A stretch of 64,000 bases of DNA from Thermoanaerobaculia bacterium. GTDB lineage: Bacteria; Acidobacteriota; Thermoanaerobaculia; Gp7-AA8. Below are positions 56,828 to 64,000 of the stretch, piece after piece. Below the pieces are notes generated by a model, which was given only the letters and a program-made list of their open reading frames with translations, searched no databases and had not been told where the DNA came from. A program made the translations under genes and the position numbers. Where the stretch lies: NCBI GenBank assembly GCA_017883205.1, contig JADGNZ010000001.1:62001-126000 (forward strand). The letters are read 5' to 3'. Position 1 is the first letter of the stretch; every line of letters begins with the position of its first letter.

Positions 56828-57463
56828 ATGAGCGACAACAAGACGTGGGGATCGACCGTGATGGGCTGGTTCGTGGTCAAGGACCAGGCCGAGGGCTCGG
56901 ATGAGCCGGCGCCAGCGGTCGCTGACGACGGTGCCGCGGCGGCGCCGCAAGCGGACGTTCCTGTCTTCAACACCCCCCCTCCGCCTGCGCCGGGCGGCAA
57001 GGTCGACTTCGATAAGGTCTTCGAAGCGGCCGGCATCGATGCCGACGAGCGGCAGCGCGTTTCGCGCACGCTCGAGTTGCTGACCTCACTTCCTCCGGAC
57101 ACGGAGGCTGCGGTCAAGAAGCAGATCGTGATGGCGTCGCTGCGGGCGTTTGGCGTCCCGATCGAAAAGATCATCGAAGCCGGCGCGCAGGAGCTGCAGG
57201 CGCTCGACGGCTATATCCGTGCGGGCGCTGGAGATACGGACAAAGTAACCTCCGAGGCGGACCAACGCATCAAACAATACGAAGAAGAAATCGTAAAACT
57301 CAAGACAGTGATGCAGGACCGGGTCGCAGAACAGCAAAGCGTCGTAACCTCCTGCAACGAGAAGAAGCTCGAGGTGCAGAAAGTCCTCGAGTTCTTCGGG
57401 CAGGAAGCGGTTGCACGCGTCGTTCGCGAATCGCCGAAGCTACAAGAACCATCAGGGAGCTGA
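56828..57463 (+). CDS. helical protein paired with PspA, unknown function
   Basis: A 211-residue protein: short N-terminal part (MGWFVVKDQ), an acidic Pro/Ala-rich linker (about 20-58), a compact helical domain (about 60-135; [22 protein letters not shown]) and a C-terminal coiled coil (about 140-205; [18 protein letters not shown]). No membrane segment. It is not a PspA itself. It lies 5 bp before pspA, so the two are co-translated and probably interact; the coiled coil could pack on PspA filaments. I do not recognise the family. Confidence 0.72.
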
Positions 57464-57468
57464 GAACT

Positions 57469-58167
57469 ATGGGAGTTTTTTCGAGACTGGGTAATCTCTG
57501 GAAGGGCTTTCTTTCTCTTTGGATTGCTGACATCGAGCAGGAGCACCCCGAGATCGCGTACGAGAACGCGATCAACTCGATGATCGCCAAGTACGCCAAG
57601 CTGAAGGGCGCCACCGCGGCGATCATCCGCCGCCGCGAAGATCTCGATGATCGTTTCAAGAAGGCGAACGCTGATCTGGCCCAGACCGCGGCGGAGCTGA
57701 ATACGGCGGTCGAGACGAATCAGGACGATCTTGCGGTCATCCTCATTCAGAAGAAGAATCAGCTCACGGCCGACATCGCAGAGATGCAGACGGACCTCGA
57801 GACGGCGCACTCCGATGCGCAGTCGGCGAAGACGTCGCTCCTCGGCGTGCAGTCGGAGATCAAGAAGCTGCAGGCCGAGCGTGAAACGATGCTGGCCAAG
57901 ATGCAGTCGGCACAGGCGCGGATCAAGATTCAGGAACAGCTCGACGGCCTTTCGGTCGACGATGAGGTGCGCGCGCTCGACAACGTGCGGACGCACATCA
58001 AGAACACGATCGCCGAAGCGAACCTCGGCAAAGAGCTTTCCGATTCGTCACTCGACTCCCGTCTGGCCGGCCTTCGCAGTCAGGTCGGCGACGTTCAGGC
58101 CAAACAGGAGCTCGCAGAGATGAAGGCTCGCAAAGCCGCGCAGCAGCAGGGCCAGAAGACGATGTAG
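57469..58167 (+). CDS. PspA/IM30-family protein
   Basis: A 232-residue, almost wholly helical protein of the PspA/Vipp1 family, which belongs to the ESCRT-III superfamily and coats or remodels membranes. It starts with an amphipathic helix ([20 protein letters not shown]), as PspA does for membrane binding, followed by the long coiled coil (about 25-160) and further helices to 225. Unlike E. coli PspA there is no pspBC or pspF nearby; instead it sits in an operon with an ABC transporter and an AAA+ ATPase. A membrane-protection or scission role is likely. Confidence 0.9.
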
Positions 58168-58237
58168 TCATTGGTCATCCCGGGCGTGAGCGCGGGAGCT
58201 GCTCACCTCGGGCTCGCAAGGTTTCTTGGAGGATCTG

Positions 58238-59872
58238 ATGAAACTCACTCCGTTCGCAAAATTCTTCATTACCGTGGTGGTCCTTGCCGTCGTCGGATAT
58301 GCGGCCTACCACTACAAAGGCGCCGACATTCGCAAGTGGGCCACCGGCAGCGACAAAGGGCAATCGCAGACCAGTACGAGCGCGGTCGGCAGCAGCGATT
58401 TCGATGCCCTCAAGAACGCGCCGGCGGACCCGTCGCGCGATGCCTCCGTCACCGGTGTCTCCGCCGTCAACGTCAGCGGCGGCAAGTTGACTCGCCCGCT
58501 CGTCGTTGCCATCAATACCTGGGCCGGTCACTCGCCCGGGATCGTTTTCAACAACGGGCTGGATCCAAGCGATTCATCGAACTTTCGCCGCAAGTACGGG
58601 CTGGATGTGAAGTTCGTGTTGATCGAAGACCCTGCCTCGAAGCTGGCTGCATTCCGCAAGGGCGACGTCGACATCATGTGGAACACCGTCGACAACTGGG
58701 CGCGCGAGGCTTCGATCCTCGCCGAGAACGGCCAGAAGGCGAAGTCGGTGATCATGCAGGACTGGTCCCGCGGCGGCGACGGCATCGTCTCGCTGGCCTC
58801 GATCAACTCGATCGAGCAACTCAAGGGGCACAAGATCGCCTGCACCCAGTTCACACCGTCGCATTTCCTGCTGCTCTATCTCCTGTCGCAGTCAGGCCTG
58901 TCGGCCGACGATCGAGCCGCCGTCGAGAAGAACATCATCTTCACTCAGGATGCGCCGGCCGCGGCCGCAATGTTCAAAGCGAAGCAGGTCGATGCTGCCG
59001 TAACGTGGGAGCCCGATCTCTCCGGAGCCGTCACCGCACGCGGCGACGAAGCGCACGTTCTGGTCTCTACCACCGCCGCAACCAACATCATCGCCGACAC
59101 GCTTTGCGCGCGGCAGGACGTGATCGACAAGGCCCCCGAGTCGGTGCGCGACTTCGTTCACGGCTGGCTCGACGGCATCGAGATGATGAAGAACGATCCA
59201 GCCAACGCTTACGCGATCGTTGGCAAAGCGCTGAAGCTGGACACGGACACCGTTTCGGGAATGCTCTCCGGACTCAAGCTCACGACCTATGCGGACAACG
59301 CGCAGTTCTACGGACTGTCCGGCGGCAAAGCCCACTACGACACTCTGTTCGAGACTGCGTTCGTGATCTGGCGCAAGAAGGGGCTGGTCACACGCTCGGT
59401 CGAGGCGAAGGACTGGGTCGATACGCGCTTCCTGAATTCGCTCGCCGCCAGCTACGGAACGCAGAAGGTTGAAGAGCCGAAGATCGCTGCGAAAGCGCCG
59501 TCAGCGAATGACCGCGCCATCATCAACAAACAGATCGAGGTTCACTTCACGCCGGGGTCCGACGACATCATGCCGGGCTCGTTCTTCGTCCTCGACTCCC
59601 TCGGCGACACCATGACGTCATTCGGCAACACCTACCTGCGCGTTGAAGGAAACACTGACGCCACTGGGTCACCCACCAAGAACATGACGCTCTCCGAACG
59701 GCGCGCTCTGGCGGTAAAGAACTACATCGTCAAGACGTTCCCGAACATCGATCCGAACCGCTTCCAGACCATCGGCCGCGGCTCAACCAATCCGGTCGCC
59801 GATAACTCCAGCGAAGCCGGGCGCCAGTTGAATCGCCGCACGGAGATCAAGGTCGTTCTCACGACCCAGTAA
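58238..59872 (+). CDS. substrate-binding protein fused to OmpA peptidoglycan-binding domain
   Basis: A 544-residue fusion. An N-terminal membrane anchor (about 7-25) leads through a Ser/Ala linker to a NitT/TauT-type periplasmic-binding domain (about 85-410; AINTWAGHSPGIVFNNG, DVDIMWNTVDNW, ACTQFTPSHFLLLYLLSQSG). A C-terminal OmpA/MotB domain (about 428-544) has VEGNTDATGS and LSERRALAVKNYI for diaminopimelate binding. It would be fixed to both inner membrane and cell wall. ATG follows TTGGAGGA. It overlaps the permease gene by one base, so it belongs to that transporter. The ligand is unknown. Confidence 0.88.
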   Translation: MKLTPFAKFFITVVVLAVVGYAAYHYKGADIRKWATGSDKGQSQTSTSAVGSSDFDALKNAPADPSRDASVTGVSAVNVSGGKLTRPLVVAINTWAGHSPGIVFNNGLDPSDSSNFRRKYGLDVKFVLIEDPASKLAAFRKGDVDIMWNTVDNWAREASILAENGQKAKSVIMQDWSRGGDGIVSLASINSIEQLKGHKIACTQFTPSHFLLLYLLSQSGLSADDRAAVEKNIIFTQDAPAAAAMFKAKQVDAAVTWEPDLSGAVTARGDEAHVLVSTTAATNIIADTLCARQDVIDKAPESVRDFVHGWLDGIEMMKNDPANAYAIVGKALKLDTDTVSGMLSGLKLTTYADNAQFYGLSGGKAHYDTLFETAFVIWRKKGLVTRSVEAKDWVDTRFLNSLAASYGTQKVEEPKIAAKAPSANDRAIINKQIEVHFTPGSDDIMPGSFFVLDSLGDTMTSFGNTYLRVEGNTDATGSPTKNMTLSERRALAVKNYIVKTFPNIDPNRFQTIGRGSTNPVADNSSEAGRQLNRRTEIKVVLTTQ

Positions 59873-60681
59873 TGGCCACACGCCGCAAGATTTCGATCTG
59901 GTCGATTCGCCAGCCCGTGCCGCGCGGCACGGCGCTGGCGCTCGCATTCGTGATGCCGATCGTCGTCATCGGCGCGTGGAGCATTGTCAGCTACGGCCAC
60001 CTGGCGCCGGCCGACTTCCTTCCGTCGCCGAGTGAGGTGATTCGCGGCACGCTGCAGCTCTTCATTCAGTACGAGCTCTTCACCTCGATCGTGATCTCGA
60101 CGCAGCGGATCGTGACCGCGTTCCTCCTGGCCTCCGCGGTGGCGATTCCGCTCGGGATCCTGATGGGCGCGTTTAACCCGATCAATCACCTCTTCGACTC
60201 GATCGTCGCGCCGTTGCGGTACATGCCGATCTCGGCATTCATTCCGCTGCTCATCCTCTGGTTCGGCATTTACGACCAGGAGAAGATCGCCTTTCTGTTT
60301 CTTGGGGTATTCGTCTATCTGCTTCCGGTAGTGGTTTCGGCGATTCGTGCCGTTCCCGAGGAGTTGGTGCAGACCGCGCTGACTCTAGGCGCATCAAAGT
60401 GGCAGGTCGTCCGCACCGTGCTCCTGCCATCGGCGCTTCCGGAGATCTTCGAATCGTTCCGAGTGATGAATGCGATCCTCTGGACTTACGTCATCCTCGC
60501 CGAAGCGGTGAATCCCGAGCATGGACTCGGATACATGGTCGAGCTTGCCCGAACGCATCAGAAAGCTTCGTGGTCGTTCGCCGGATTGATCGTCATCGGT
60601 GGCATTGGCCTCATCACCGATCAGGTCATTCGCATGATCTCTGCGCTTCTCTTTCGCTGGAAGGAAGACGCTGATGGCTGA
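59872..60681 (+). CDS. ABC transporter permease, NitT/TauT type
   Basis: A 269-residue BPD_transp_1 permease with about six membrane segments. FLPSPSEVIRGTLQLF (about 47-62) is the TauC/SsuC signature, and the EAA loop is ALTLGASKWQVVRTVLLPSALPEIF (about 164-188), which contacts the ATPase. The start overlaps the last base of the binding-protein stop (TAATG), and the end overlaps the ATPase start by 8 bp. Confidence 0.93.
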   Translation: MATRRKISIWSIRQPVPRGTALALAFVMPIVVIGAWSIVSYGHLAPADFLPSPSEVIRGTLQLFIQYELFTSIVISTQRIVTAFLLASAVAIPLGILMGAFNPINHLFDSIVAPLRYMPISAFIPLLILWFGIYDQEKIAFLFLGVFVYLLPVVVSAIRAVPEELVQTALTLGASKWQVVRTVLLPSALPEIFESFRVMNAILWTYVILAEAVNPEHGLGYMVELARTHQKASWSFAGLIVIGGIGLITDQVIRMISALLFRWKEDADG

Positions 60682-61549
60682 CGAACAACCGCAAGCAGGC
60701 GAACCGGGAACCGTCGCTGTCACCGCCGACGCCAAGCCGTCGAAGGCAACCTACGTCAGCGAGCGTGCCGAACAAGCGCGGCTGCGCATCACTGACCTCG
60801 GCGTGACGTACGTCGGCCACGATGGCCGCGAGACAGAAGCGGTGCGCGAAGTGACGCTCGACATCGCCGACAAGCCCAACGTCGGCGAAATCGTCGTTTT
60901 TCTGGGGCCGTCCGGCTGCGGTAAGTCGACGATTCTCAAAGCGGTGGCCGGCCTGCTCGCTCCGACGAGGGGCGAGATCCTCATCGACGGCGTACCGGTC
61001 ACCGGCGTCGGCCGCGATCGCGGAATGGTGTTTCAGGCATACACCTCGTTTGGATGGCTGACGGTTCGACAGAACGTCGAGTACGGCCTTCGCCTACAGG
61101 GTCTCGACGCAAAAGAGCGTGCGACGCGCTCAAAGAAGTATCTCGAAGCAGTCGGACTCGCCGACTTCGCTGACCGTTATCCGAAAGACCTCTCTGGCGG
61201 CATGAAGCAGCGCGTGGCCATCGCGCGGACGCTGATCAACAAGCCGAAGCTGGTGCTGATGGACGAGCCGTTCGGCGCGCTCGATCCGCAAACCCGTTGG
61301 GGGATGCAGAGTCTTCTCCTCGACGTATCGCGCGACGAGGACAACACGATCCTGTTCGTCACGCATGACGTATCAGAAGCGGTCTATCTCGCCGATTCGA
61401 TCTACGTTATGGCCCCGCGTCCGACCAAAATCCTCCATCGTGTCGATGTGCCCTTTTTCCAGAATCGGGACATGGCTCTGAAGTCGTCAAAGGAGTTTCG
61501 AGGGGTGGAACAGAAACTCCTCGACTTCCTGTACGCGCCAGCCTCGTAG
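60674..61549 (+). CDS. ABC transporter ATP-binding protein, NitT/TauT type
   Basis: A 291-residue ATPase with Walker A (GPSGCGKST, about 78-86), Q-loop (VFQAYTSFGWLTV), signature LSGGMKQR and Walker B (LVLMDEPFGALDPQTR), all intact. The 40-residue N-terminal extension is longer than in TauB. It powers the transporter whose binding domain carries the OmpA fusion. A TAGAAT box covering the stop codon may start a second transcript for the next gene. Confidence 0.94.
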   Translation: MADEQPQAGEPGTVAVTADAKPSKATYVSERAEQARLRITDLGVTYVGHDGRETEAVREVTLDIADKPNVGEIVVFLGPSGCGKSTILKAVAGLLAPTRGEILIDGVPVTGVGRDRGMVFQAYTSFGWLTVRQNVEYGLRLQGLDAKERATRSKKYLEAVGLADFADRYPKDLSGGMKQRVAIARTLINKPKLVLMDEPFGALDPQTRWGMQSLLLDVSRDEDNTILFVTHDVSEAVYLADSIYVMAPRPTKILHRVDVPFFQNRDMALKSSKEFRGVEQKLLDFLYAPAS

Positions 61550-61552
61550 AAT
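61547..61552 (+). promoter_or_regulatory. TAGAAT box, possible internal leaderless start
   Basis: TAGAAT ends 6 nt before the GTG at 61559 and includes the TAG stop of the ATPase gene. Confidence 0.35.
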
Positions 61553-61558
61553 GATCCC

Positions 61559-62497
61559 GTGCCCGATCCTCCGAAAAAGGACGCCTCGCCGCTACAGACT
61601 GTGACGTCGCAGCAGCGTGCGCCGAAGACAGCCGCTGTGGCGAAGCCCGCGCAACCGCAGGCGGACCTCGGCCGCGCCATTCGCGAGACCGCCACCGACG
61701 CGGTCAAAGAGGCTGCCTTTCACAACCGGCCCTACCTGAAGATGGCCTTCGCCAATCCCTACAACCTCTCGCTGCTTCTCGGCGGTGTGACGGCGTCGCT
61801 GCTCACCGCCAATCCTCTACCCGGAGTCATCGCGCTCGGCGCCGAGGCACTCTGGCTTCTGCACGGATCCGACTCGCAATACCTTCGCCGCATTCTCTGG
61901 GACCCGCGCCTGGAAAAGATCCGACTGGCGATGGAAGAGCAGGACCGCGCGGAAAAGATGAAGGATCTTCCGGACAGCGAGAAGGAGCGCGTGAACGGGC
62001 TGGTTGCGCGCGAGCAGCAGATCAACAAGCTGGCCTCTGCCAACCCTTCATTCACCGGTGACCTTCTGCGCACCGAGCTAGTGAAGACGCACAAGCTCGT
62101 CGAGTCGTTTCTGGAGATGGCGCTGACCGTGAACCGCTACGAAAACTACCTCGGCACAGTGGACGTAGATGCGCTCGAGCGCGATCGGGAGCGCTGGCAC
62201 GACCGATCGATCGCACAGCAGGCCAGTGCGCCCGAGCGAGACATTGCCCTTAAGAACTTTGCCGTGATCCAGAAGCGCGTCGAGCGCGTTCACGAGATTG
62301 GCCGCTACCTCGGCGTCGCCCGCGCGCAACTCGATCTCATCGAGAACTCGTTCCAGCTCATCGCCGATCAGATCGTGACCATGCAGTCGCCCAACGAGCT
62401 GTCCGGACAACTCGACGATCTGCTCGACGGCGTCGATTCCATCCGCCAGACCGCGATCGACACCGAGAAACTACTCAACGGAACGGAGAGCGTATGA
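61559..62497 (+). CDS. membrane/coiled-coil protein of unknown function
   Basis: A 312-residue protein: Pro/Ala/Lys-rich N-terminus (1-40), a hydrophobic hairpin (about 67-102, NLSLLLGGVTASLLTANPLPG then ALGAEALWLLHG) and a long helical part (about 115-310) with coiled-coil character. It starts with GTG and its stop overlaps the AAA+ start (ATGA). It is not recognised, but the layout (membrane hairpin plus cytosolic helical arm) and tight coupling suggest an adaptor between the membrane and the AAA+ ATPase. Confidence 0.75.
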   Translation: MPDPPKKDASPLQTVTSQQRAPKTAAVAKPAQPQADLGRAIRETATDAVKEAAFHNRPYLKMAFANPYNLSLLLGGVTASLLTANPLPGVIALGAEALWLLHGSDSQYLRRILWDPRLEKIRLAMEEQDRAEKMKDLPDSEKERVNGLVAREQQINKLASANPSFTGDLLRTELVKTHKLVESFLEMALTVNRYENYLGTVDVDALERDRERWHDRSIAQQASAPERDIALKNFAVIQKRVERVHEIGRYLGVARAQLDLIENSFQLIADQIVTMQSPNELSGQLDDLLDGVDSIRQTAIDTEKLLNGTESV

Positions 62498-64000
62498 CGA
62501 AAGCCATCCTTCCGAGTTGGGCCGATGAGCTACGCAGCCGCTACCTGCGGAGCGAGGCCTCCATCTTCGTCCTGCACGGCAACGTGTATGACGCGGTGAT
62601 CAGCGACGGCCGCATCGTCACTCTCACCGAGTTCCTCGGCGAAGTTCTACTCGATCAGTCGAAAGAAACGATCGCGGTTTACAACGTCGCCACGGGCGTT
62701 CGTTTCCTTAAGCGTGCACCTACAGTCAACGTCGACGAGGCGCTTCTCTCCGGCGATAAACCGCGCGTTCTGGCGGCACTCGAGCGCTTGCTGGTGGGCG
62801 GCACGAGGACGGCGGTCATCCTCGAATATGCGGAAGCGATCGCTCCCGCCGGCGATCCCAACTTTCAGAGCGAAGCGGATCGCGCCGCGCTCGTGACGTT
62901 GCACCGCTGGTCGTTCCTGGAAGAGATCGAGCGCAGCGACAACATCGTCATCCTCATCGCCGAAAATCTGACCGAGCTTGCGTCGAAGCTCGTCTCCAAT
63001 CCGCGCGTGGCCGTCGTCGAGCTGCCGATGCCCGATCGCGAGGAGCGCAATGCCGCGGTCCGCGTCGCGGACAAGCGTCTCGATGACAAGGATGTCGCAC
63101 GCTACGGGGAGATCACGGCCGGGCTCAAGGCGATCCAGATCATCTCGATCCTCACGCCTCCGCCTGCGAGCGAGGAGGAATCGCGCCAGCGCGAGGACTT
63201 CATCACCAGCATTCTCACGGGTCCCGACACCGCCGAGCGCGCGAAGAAGATTGCCGCGTTGACAGCCGGTCTCAGTCACGACGAGATCGCGAAGTTGATC
63301 GCCCCCGGGGCGCAGCCTGCCAGCATTCCGCAGGATCGCGATGCCCGCGCCCGCAAAGAAGTCGATGCGCTCATCGCGCACCGCAAGCGCGAGATTCTCG
63401 AGCGCGAGTGTTTCGGTCTGATCGAGTTCGTCGAACCGGCGCACGGATTCGAGGTCGTCGGTGGGATGGACGAGGTCAAGAAGGATCTTCTCGTCATCGC
63501 CAACAGCATCCGCAACGGCGAGACATCGCGTGTTCCGATGGGCGTGCTCTTCACCGGACCCATGGGAACGGGGAAGACGTTCGTGGCCGAGGCGTTCGCG
63601 CGCGAGTGCGGGCTGACGACGATCAAGCTGAAGAACTTCCGCTCGAAGTGGGTGGGCGCCACGGAGGGAAATCTCGAGAAGATTCTGAACGTGATCCGCG
63701 CCATCGGACAGGTCGTCGTCATCATCGACGAAGGCGACCGCGCTTTCGGAAATACGGATGGCGAAGGCGACGGCGGGACGTCGTCCCGGGTCATTGCCCG
63801 CATCAAGGAGTTCATGTCGGACACGTCGAATCGTGGACGAATCCTTTTCCTGGTGATGACGAACCGGCCCGATAAGCTGGACGTCGATCTCAAACGCGCC
63901 GGCCGTCTCGATCGCAAGATCCCGTTCCTCTATTCGCAGACCGCGGAAGAGGTGGAAGCCGTCGCCAACGCGCTCCTGAAGAAAAACGCCATCGTCACGG
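62494..64000 (+). CDS. two-module AAA+ ATPase, 3' end beyond window
   Basis: At least 502 residues, cut by the window end. The first module (about 20-245) has AAA-like strands ([40 protein letters not shown]) but no Walker A, resembling the dead N-terminal module of Ycf46-type ATPases. The second is active-looking: Walker A GPMGTGKT (355-362), Walker B VVVIIDE (Asp412, Glu413), and arginine finger region RAGRLDRK (468-475). It is coupled to the preceding gene by ATGA. With PspA in the operon, a Vps4-like disassembly motor is an attractive inference. Confidence 0.88.

Follow-up and report, generated by a model that had tools for sequence, protein, structure and literature searches.

The 64,000-nucleotide stretch of Thermoanaerobaculia DNA analyzed here (the window) covers positions 62001–126000 of contig C1 in a 6.37-Mb genome (G000, the own genome; G denotes a genome and L a locus or stretch examined), and it ends in an operon that combines a PspA/IM30 protein, an ATP-binding cassette (ABC) importer, and an AAA+ ATPase. 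Seven open reading frames (ORFs) lie on the plus strand from position 56828, encoding a 211-residue helical protein (the helix protein, 56828..57463), PspA (57469..58167), the binding protein of the importer (SBP, 58238..59872, with a TTG start at 58226 also possible), its permease (59872..60681) and ABC ATPase (60674..61549), a 312-residue protein with a GTG start that we call TMcc (61559..62497), and the AAA+ ATPase (62494..64000, continuing to 64323 past the window). Five base pairs separate the helix protein and PspA genes, and 58 bp separate those of PspA and SBP, or 70 bp when the ATG at 58238, which coincides with the start of the family consensus, is taken as the SBP start codon; the SBP and permease genes overlap by 1 bp, the permease and ATPase genes overlap by 8 bp, a 9-bp gap precedes TMcc, and the TMcc and AAA+ genes overlap by 4 bp. 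These coordinates bear out the seven co-directional genes with short gaps or overlaps described in an earlier reading made without database searches (the sequence-only reading). The operon is real, and its order lies far beyond chance because it recurs in many genomes. A scan for sigma-70 promoters, which returned two against 1.5 expected, was uninformative.

Pfam names five of the seven products (PspA_IM30, NMT1 with OmpA, BPD_transp_1, ABC_tran, and AAA). The 232-residue PspA, a member of the endosomal sorting complex required for transport III (ESCRT-III) superfamily, scores 70.1 bits against PF04012 (cut-off 33.9), which places it in the PspA/IM30 family, and only 45.8 bits against the equivalog model TIGR02977 (cut-off 242.95); judged by sequence, it is a divergent PspA. 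A profile of its subfamily (alignment A4) matches sll0617 (Protein Data Bank (PDB) 7o3w) with an E value of 6.3e-27. The protein ends in QKTM, encoded by the final four codons (58153..58164, plus strand), a tail brought out by alignment and comparison of C termini.

The window cuts off the AAA+ ORF, whose stop lies at window coordinate 64323 on the parent contig (L003:7495-9324), giving a protein of 609 residues. Its second module (D2) is a standard AAA domain (PF00004, 95.6 bits, residues 351–478) with Walker A, Walker B, and second-region-of-homology arginines in 10 of 10 alignment rows, as in the classic AAA clade of Vps4/ESCRT-IV, and its best PDB sequence matches are of the Cdc48/p97 type. 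Conservation extends to the N-terminal module, which shows LPxWA followed by F.L.GNV but contains no Walker A or P-loop. Residues 1–300 drew a single match among solved structures, a ribosomal protein at an E value of 0.97, and although the module is collinear with D2 over Walker-B-like and sensor-1-like stretches, the alignment is insignificant (hhalign probability 1.2%). Of the two-module AAA+ proposed in the sequence-only reading, the second module is thus canonical and the first is not recognizably so. The MIT family found in Vps4/ESCRT-IV is absent from the Pfam matches of residues 1–502 up to an E value of 0.1. Among the matches listed, the closest named relative, at 89% identity in the AAA+, comes from a Thermoanaerobaculia metagenome-assembled genome (MAG). 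Additional shorter AAA-type ORFs, scoring ≈200 bits against the AAA+ profile, lie near the operon at L057:1854-2870 and L119:12291-13709. Downstream of the AAA+ gene in the own genome is an ORF that by eye resembles Glu/Leu dehydrogenase.

Between PspA and AAA+ lie the genes of an ABC transporter predicted to be wall-tethered, as the sequence-only reading had proposed. SBP combines a hydrophobic N-terminal anchor, an NMT1/SsuA-like domain (PF09084, 45.6 bits), and a C-terminal OmpA domain (PF00691, 60.8 bits) that is nearly full length, covering profile positions 2–98 of 98, and belongs with the OmpA-like peptidoglycan-binding domains. The only hydrophobic stretch falls in 19-residue windows starting at positions 4–11 of the TTG-start form. 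Asp478 and Arg493, which we take to be the OmpA-domain residues that bind diaminopimelate, are invariant in 16 rows. The permease is TauC/SsuC-like (PF00528, 77.8 bits); an EAA loop was not found by a regular expression that was possibly too strict. The ABC ATPase (PF00005, 114.4 bits), nearest to the taurine type, carries all four motifs looked for: Walker A (residue 78), signature (173), Walker B (193), and H-loop (229). These features resemble NitT/TauT importers such as TauABC and SsuABC; the operon differs in the membrane anchor and OmpA domain added to its SBP and in that the NCBIfam models listed for taurine, sulfonate, and nitrate transport (TauA/C, SsuA, SsuC, and nitrate) stay below their cut-offs.

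The two remaining products, the helix protein and TMcc, match no Pfam or NCBIfam family at cut-off (best Pfam E value for the helix protein, 0.017), in agreement with the earlier statement that two members are unrecognized. An AlphaFold2 (AF2) model of the helix protein, built from a 26-row alignment (A7), has a mean predicted local distance difference test score (pLDDT) of 84.2, with 40–50 low-confidence residues at the start, small helices at 61–107, and one long helix of 79 residues (112–190). The model of TMcc (38 rows, mean pLDDT 83.7) shows a short helical hairpin (67–83, 86–102) and a bundle. The hairpin is plainly hydrophobic in most of 37 relatives (alignment A6), is missing in L086 (0.85), and is weak in this copy (best 17-residue Kyte–Doolittle mean 1.42), which qualifies the description of TMcc as a membrane/coiled-coil protein in the sequence-only reading. 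Foldseek found no match for either model at E ≤ 0.001. VIA-align matched TMcc to varied helical bundles at Z scores up to 11.4, a level common for such folds, and the helix protein at up to 5.4; the ESCRT-III IST1/CHMP1B match of the latter (Z 5.0) stood among equals and was not used. We considered and rejected both proteins as recognizable PspA/Snf7 relatives, given hhalign probabilities against the PspA profile of 0.6% for TMcc and 1.6% for the helix protein; a PspA/Snf7 model is also absent from the 25 of 86 Pfam families listed for TMcc, although a match in fold is possible for this protein. A scan of viral contigs found no TMcc relatives.

We surveyed the linkage of these genes by searching genome contigs with the AAA+ alignment (A1) and calling partner genes with our own hidden Markov models at 80 named AAA+ loci, the best 80 of at least 422 confirmed. 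PspA is present at 44 of the 80 loci, which carry a full ABC cassette in 29 cases, a partial one in two, and no ABC gene in 13; because of these 13, the PspA/AAA+ core and the ABC cassette are separable. Ten further loci have TMcc and/or ABC genes and no PspA, 13 have no recognized partner despite at least 7 kb of upstream sequence, and 13 more have none with shorter upstream sequence. The full order, from the helix protein through PspA, SBP/OmpA, permease, ATPase, and TMcc to AAA+, recurs in Acidobacteriota and Myxococcales records. PspA–AAA+ loci occur in records labeled Acidobacteria (and subgroups), Myxococcales/Deltaproteobacteria, and Bacteroidetes/Balneolaceae/Fodinibius, and in one MAG each of Cyanobacteria (L074) and Riflebacteria (L099) and one planctomycete (L117). 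Cultured carriers of the pair include Pyxidicoccus fallax DSM 14698 (L115/G241) and Fodinibius sediminis DSM 21194 (L110). ABC genes were not found at L029, L041 (cut within AAA+), L062 (where an OmpA-type match of 45 bits lies on the opposite strand), L074, L076, L092-94, L107, L111, and L120, and an OmpA-type match lies directly downstream at L031. At L057, L063, and L118, the same operon holds a distant cassette whose SBP scores 236–257 bits, compared with ≈850–900 in close Acidobacteriota copies, and keeps its OmpA domain; at L057, PspA (307 bits) and AAA+ (901 bits) remain close despite the divergent cassette. Other loci are rearranged yet adjacent (L104, L099, and L117). The Riflebacteria locus also shows three consecutive SBP-profile ORFs behind AAA+ and PspA and before one permease and one ATPase (L099:3324-8363). 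The same gene order across phyla that the sequence-only reading suggested looking for is therefore there, and the linkage survives rearrangement and replacement of the cassette under several phylum labels, although the modules also occur apart.

Of 77 genomes sampled from the phylum to which Pyxidicoccus fallax (G241) belongs, 47 have AAA+ (a genome counts as AAA+-negative when it has no match to A1 at E 1e-30), and all 47 also encode PspA, compared with 14 of the 30 AAA+-negative genomes. Sixteen of the 77 have no PspA_IM30 match, and AAA+ is found in none of these 16. A single contig carries AAA+ and a PspA gene 4–13 kb apart in 36 of these 47 genomes; in the other 11, no PspA lies on the AAA+ contig within 20 kb. 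A second sample comprised 197 genomes of the phylum Acidobacteriota, in which neighbor counts are lower bounds, the loci in G204, G053, and G206 having further partners below cut-offs. Here, SBP-OmpA has 26 matches, within 12 kb of PspA in 16 cases, AAA+ in 16, and TMcc in 22, and TMcc has 45 matches, near PspA in 33, SBP-OmpA in 20, and AAA+ in 19. In the AAA+ genome G058, the PspA_IM30 match runs into N; a 24,127-residue open frame there (G058:C120:143999-144277, L296) is probably no giant gene, as 1502 of 3279 locus bases are N. TMcc also adjoins PspA in 14 AAA+-lacking genomes of one Acidobacteriota family (f28), and ABC profiles run on eight of these 14 loci (L122-L129) found no ABC gene; in G101, a partial SBP match lies on another contig. 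Conversely, TMcc stands beside ABC genes with no PspA at the locus in L283, L284, and L285. The independence of the PspA/AAA+ and ABC genes, which the earlier reading had named as its own counter-case, is thus partial: they part company at 13 of 44 loci, and PspA–TMcc pairs exist without AAA+, yet the linkage recurs. As TMcc is common to both the PspA and the ABC halves, we propose it as a possible connector linking PspA to the importer. Within L283 (8424-9158, G094), a helix-type protein ahead of the ABC genes, where no PspA was found, contains RDLGP, which is like PspA tail variants.

Operon-linked PspA proteins mostly end in KTM, KSM, KTL, or KTI or have EKTIG near the end (A4). From them we fixed a strict motif, K[TS][MILV] followed by the C terminus or G, before counting it elsewhere. 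In the 77-genome sample, it occurs in 35 of 47 AAA+ genomes and in none of 14 AAA+-negative PspA-bearing genomes, and it is found in 28 of 36 genomes with PspA near AAA+ and seven of 11 without. In the Acidobacteriota sample, the counts are 10 of 23 versus 0 of 23, with G066, whose contig ends before the AAA+ position, among the negatives and the operon PspA proteins of G210 and G154 not included. Among 24 genomes with no PspA at the AAA+ locus stretch, 23 encode PspA, 17 of them with the strict motif; in at least five (G226, G234, G235, G241, and G242), PspA lies on the AAA+ contig roughly 11–22 kb away, and G219, G221, G230, and G241 are common to this set and the 77. The pooled count (215 PspA sequences, discovery loci included, with G210 and G154, both strict positive, added and G066 left out) gives 101 of 167 from AAA+ genomes or loci versus 0 of 48 from AAA+-negative genomes, and thinning at 75% identity leaves 40 of 86 versus 0 of 27; the AAA+ label is assigned per genome or locus, so additional PspA paralogues dilute these counts. 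Shuffled tails show the motif in 0.9% of cases. A looser motif gives 44 of 47 versus 0 of 14 in the 77-genome sample and 21 of 23 versus 11 of 23 in Acidobacteriota, and because it also marks these 11 negatives we used only the strict one. The motif is also found where the PspA and AAA+ genes are 4–13 kb apart or on different contigs. The own genome encodes a second, distant PspA (G000:C14:394-1137, L004) that ends in EQKSLGPKGD, with the tail motif present, and is divergent to ORFs resembling phosphate (Pst) transport genes by eye.

On a 113-row PspA tree built by a quick method, all 40 motif rows fall on one side, which comprises 59 rows. AAA+ genomes or loci supply 55 of these 59, and the other four are AAA+-negative (G062, G072, G209, and G264) and lack the motif (Fisher test, 40/55 versus 0/4, p 0.0085, ignoring relatedness). 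The motif sits internally, 4–16 residues before the end, in 16 thinned rows, and it is less variable than the tail residues on either side, a comparison that is partly circular because rows were chosen by motif.

Together, these observations lead us to favor, with slightly more confidence than doubt, the interpretation that the operon specifies a bacterial counterpart of the ESCRT-III/Vps4 cycle, linked to an importer, in which the AAA+ grips the PspA tail. PspA polymers would coat the inner face of the cytoplasmic membrane. The AAA+, with its noncanonical module ahead of one active p97-type ATPase domain, would take hold of the tail, either K[TS][MIL] at the very C terminus or [EQ]KT[IL]G shortly before it, and thread PspA out of the polymer, recycling it. 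TMcc would act as a membrane-bound connector from PspA to the ABC importer, whose SBP would be anchored in both the inner membrane and peptidoglycan. We infer tail binding, PspA disassembly, contact of TMcc with both sides, and any role in stress or transport from the gene content, linkage, and motif described above. The Vps4-like PspA–AAA+ link of the sequence-only reading thereby gains linkage, co-occurrence, and a tail motif, on an association that is not itself new (see below).

Several observations weigh against this interpretation. The strict motif is missing from 66 of the 167 PspA proteins that AAA+ genomes or loci contribute; many are additional paralogues, and others have variants (KELGP, KEIGP, RTLGP, and KKQI). 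The PspA of G221 ends in QKTT, three AAA+-bearing Bacteroidia MAGs (L146, L147, and L148; G236, G242, and G239) share the end KEPLL, and in G063, G094, G206, and G273, AAA+ genomes with PspA, no motif-bearing PspA was found. To these are added the looser-motif matches in AAA+-negative Acidobacteriota noted above and three of the 31 AAA+ carriers among the 197 Acidobacteriota genomes (G044, G053, and G119), which have no PspA_IM30 match. Truly distant PspA/AAA+ pairs are few, contigs being short elsewhere: the pair in G237 (≈0.3 Mb) has the strict motif, and those in G117, G138, and G175 (≈1–1.2 Mb) have only the variant RTLGP. PspA is commonly near AAA+, and therefore the linkage is stronger and fewer distant cases bear on the tail. 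TMcc, for its part, has no detectable PspA similarity and no informative fold match. The motif cannot be separated from the PspA clade that bears it and may merely mark a clade co-inherited with AAA+. The key split of the tree has a Shimodaira–Hasegawa-like approximate likelihood ratio (SH-aLRT) of 85, below the starred level of 95, and tree-aware independent pairs number at most three in the same direction and none in the opposite (median p 0.5); because there are at most three such differing pairs, a sign test cannot reach significance. A clade hallmark serving lipid binding or polymer packing, with no contact to the AAA+, is rather unlikely in our estimation: the confounding of motif and clade and the nonsignificant tree-aware test speak for it, whereas the four AAA+-negative rows that sit inside the clade without the motif, the Fisher test on those rows, and, with the circularity noted, the greater variation of flanking residues speak against it.

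Somewhat less likely still, the AAA+ might act on the ABC transporter or TMcc, in assembly or quality control, with PspA a mere membrane-stress companion. AAA+ beside ABC-type genes with PspA weak or not seen at the locus (G053 and G206), the TMcc–ABC loci without PspA, and the three Acidobacteriota genomes without PspA_IM30 would be expected then; the 13 PspA-bearing AAA+ loci with no ABC gene, the presence of PspA in every AAA+ genome of the 77, and a tail motif that tracks AAA+ would not. We regard as improbable a role of the tail as a degron read by some other protease, for example ClpXP, in which the operon AAA+ would have no part. C termini like VKKTM do resemble ClpX C-terminal tags, but a tag that needs a free C terminus would not tolerate the following residues seen in 16 thinned rows, and the strict motif is absent from all 48 PspA proteins of AAA+-negative genomes. 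Equally improbable, in our judgment, is a neutral linkage in which the importers are of the usual NitT/TauT type and have nothing to do with PspA; the 13 loci without ABC genes fit it, whereas distant cassettes that keep their OmpA domain in the same operon (L057, L063, and L118) and rearranged loci that stay adjacent (L104, L117, and L099) do not.

The gene association noted in the sequence-only reading has already been described, with nearly the same inference. Ravi et al. (2024, mSystems, PMC11237479) report neighborhoods of PspA, a two-domain AAA+ with an inactive N-terminal copy, and ABC/PBPB-OmpA genes (ABC ATPase, permease, and a solute- and peptidoglycan-binding protein; example OGG56892.1), the same gene set as the ABC ATPase, permease, and OmpA-bearing SBP found here with PspA and AAA+. 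The authors infer ATP-dependent membrane remodeling tied to solute transport, call the regulation of assembly by PspA homologues without an associated AAA ATPase unknown, and name Snf7 homologues with a transmembrane segment, a group that could include TMcc. The main text makes no mention of a C-terminal motif, the C terminus, or a linear motif; what is new here is the tail motif, together with the proposed role of TMcc as connector. One 2024 study of PspA rods treats their disassembly in cells as an open question and suggests chaperones or PspF by analogy to Vps4. A literature search that excluded preprints and most subscription papers found neither an experiment in which this AAA+ acts on PspA nor any account of the tail motif.

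Among known systems, ESCRT-III/Vps4 (CdvB/CdvC) shares an ESCRT-III-superfamily polymer protein encoded with a classic-clade AAA+ and a putative docking tail; the operon AAA+ differs in having no MIT domain found and a D2 nearest to Cdc48/p97. Another likeness, compared by description only, may be an archaeal ATPase that PMC10936438 describes as lacking MIT and lying beside a PspA-like gene; both are Cdc48-related AAA+ proteins adjoining a PspA-like protein, but the archaeal N-terminal domain is of the Cdc48/VAT type, whereas no solved structure corresponds to the N-terminal module of the operon protein. The classical Psp system (PspF–PspABC) has PspA in common, whereas the operon AAA+ is no transcription activator by domain content. 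PspC (PF04024), the one classical partner searched for, has no match in the own genome, as the sequence-only reading held of this locus, and a control search was positive in 7 of 14.

We advance more tentatively, at a shade under even confidence, the broader proposal that many bacteria (Acidobacteriota, Myxococcota and other deltaproteobacteria, and Bacteroidota relatives) possess a dedicated ESCRT-III recycling motor, a p97-related, non-Vps4 AAA+ whose N-terminal module would recognize a tailed PspA clade; tail docking of the Vps4 kind would then have arisen independently. With an identified AAA+ and a tail that is short and can be removed, the question of PspA recycling becomes directly testable, and two kinds of PspA can be set apart, one with motor and tail and one without. 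The conserved tail suggests how a motor might grip PspA and so bears on what recycles PspA coats in bacteria.

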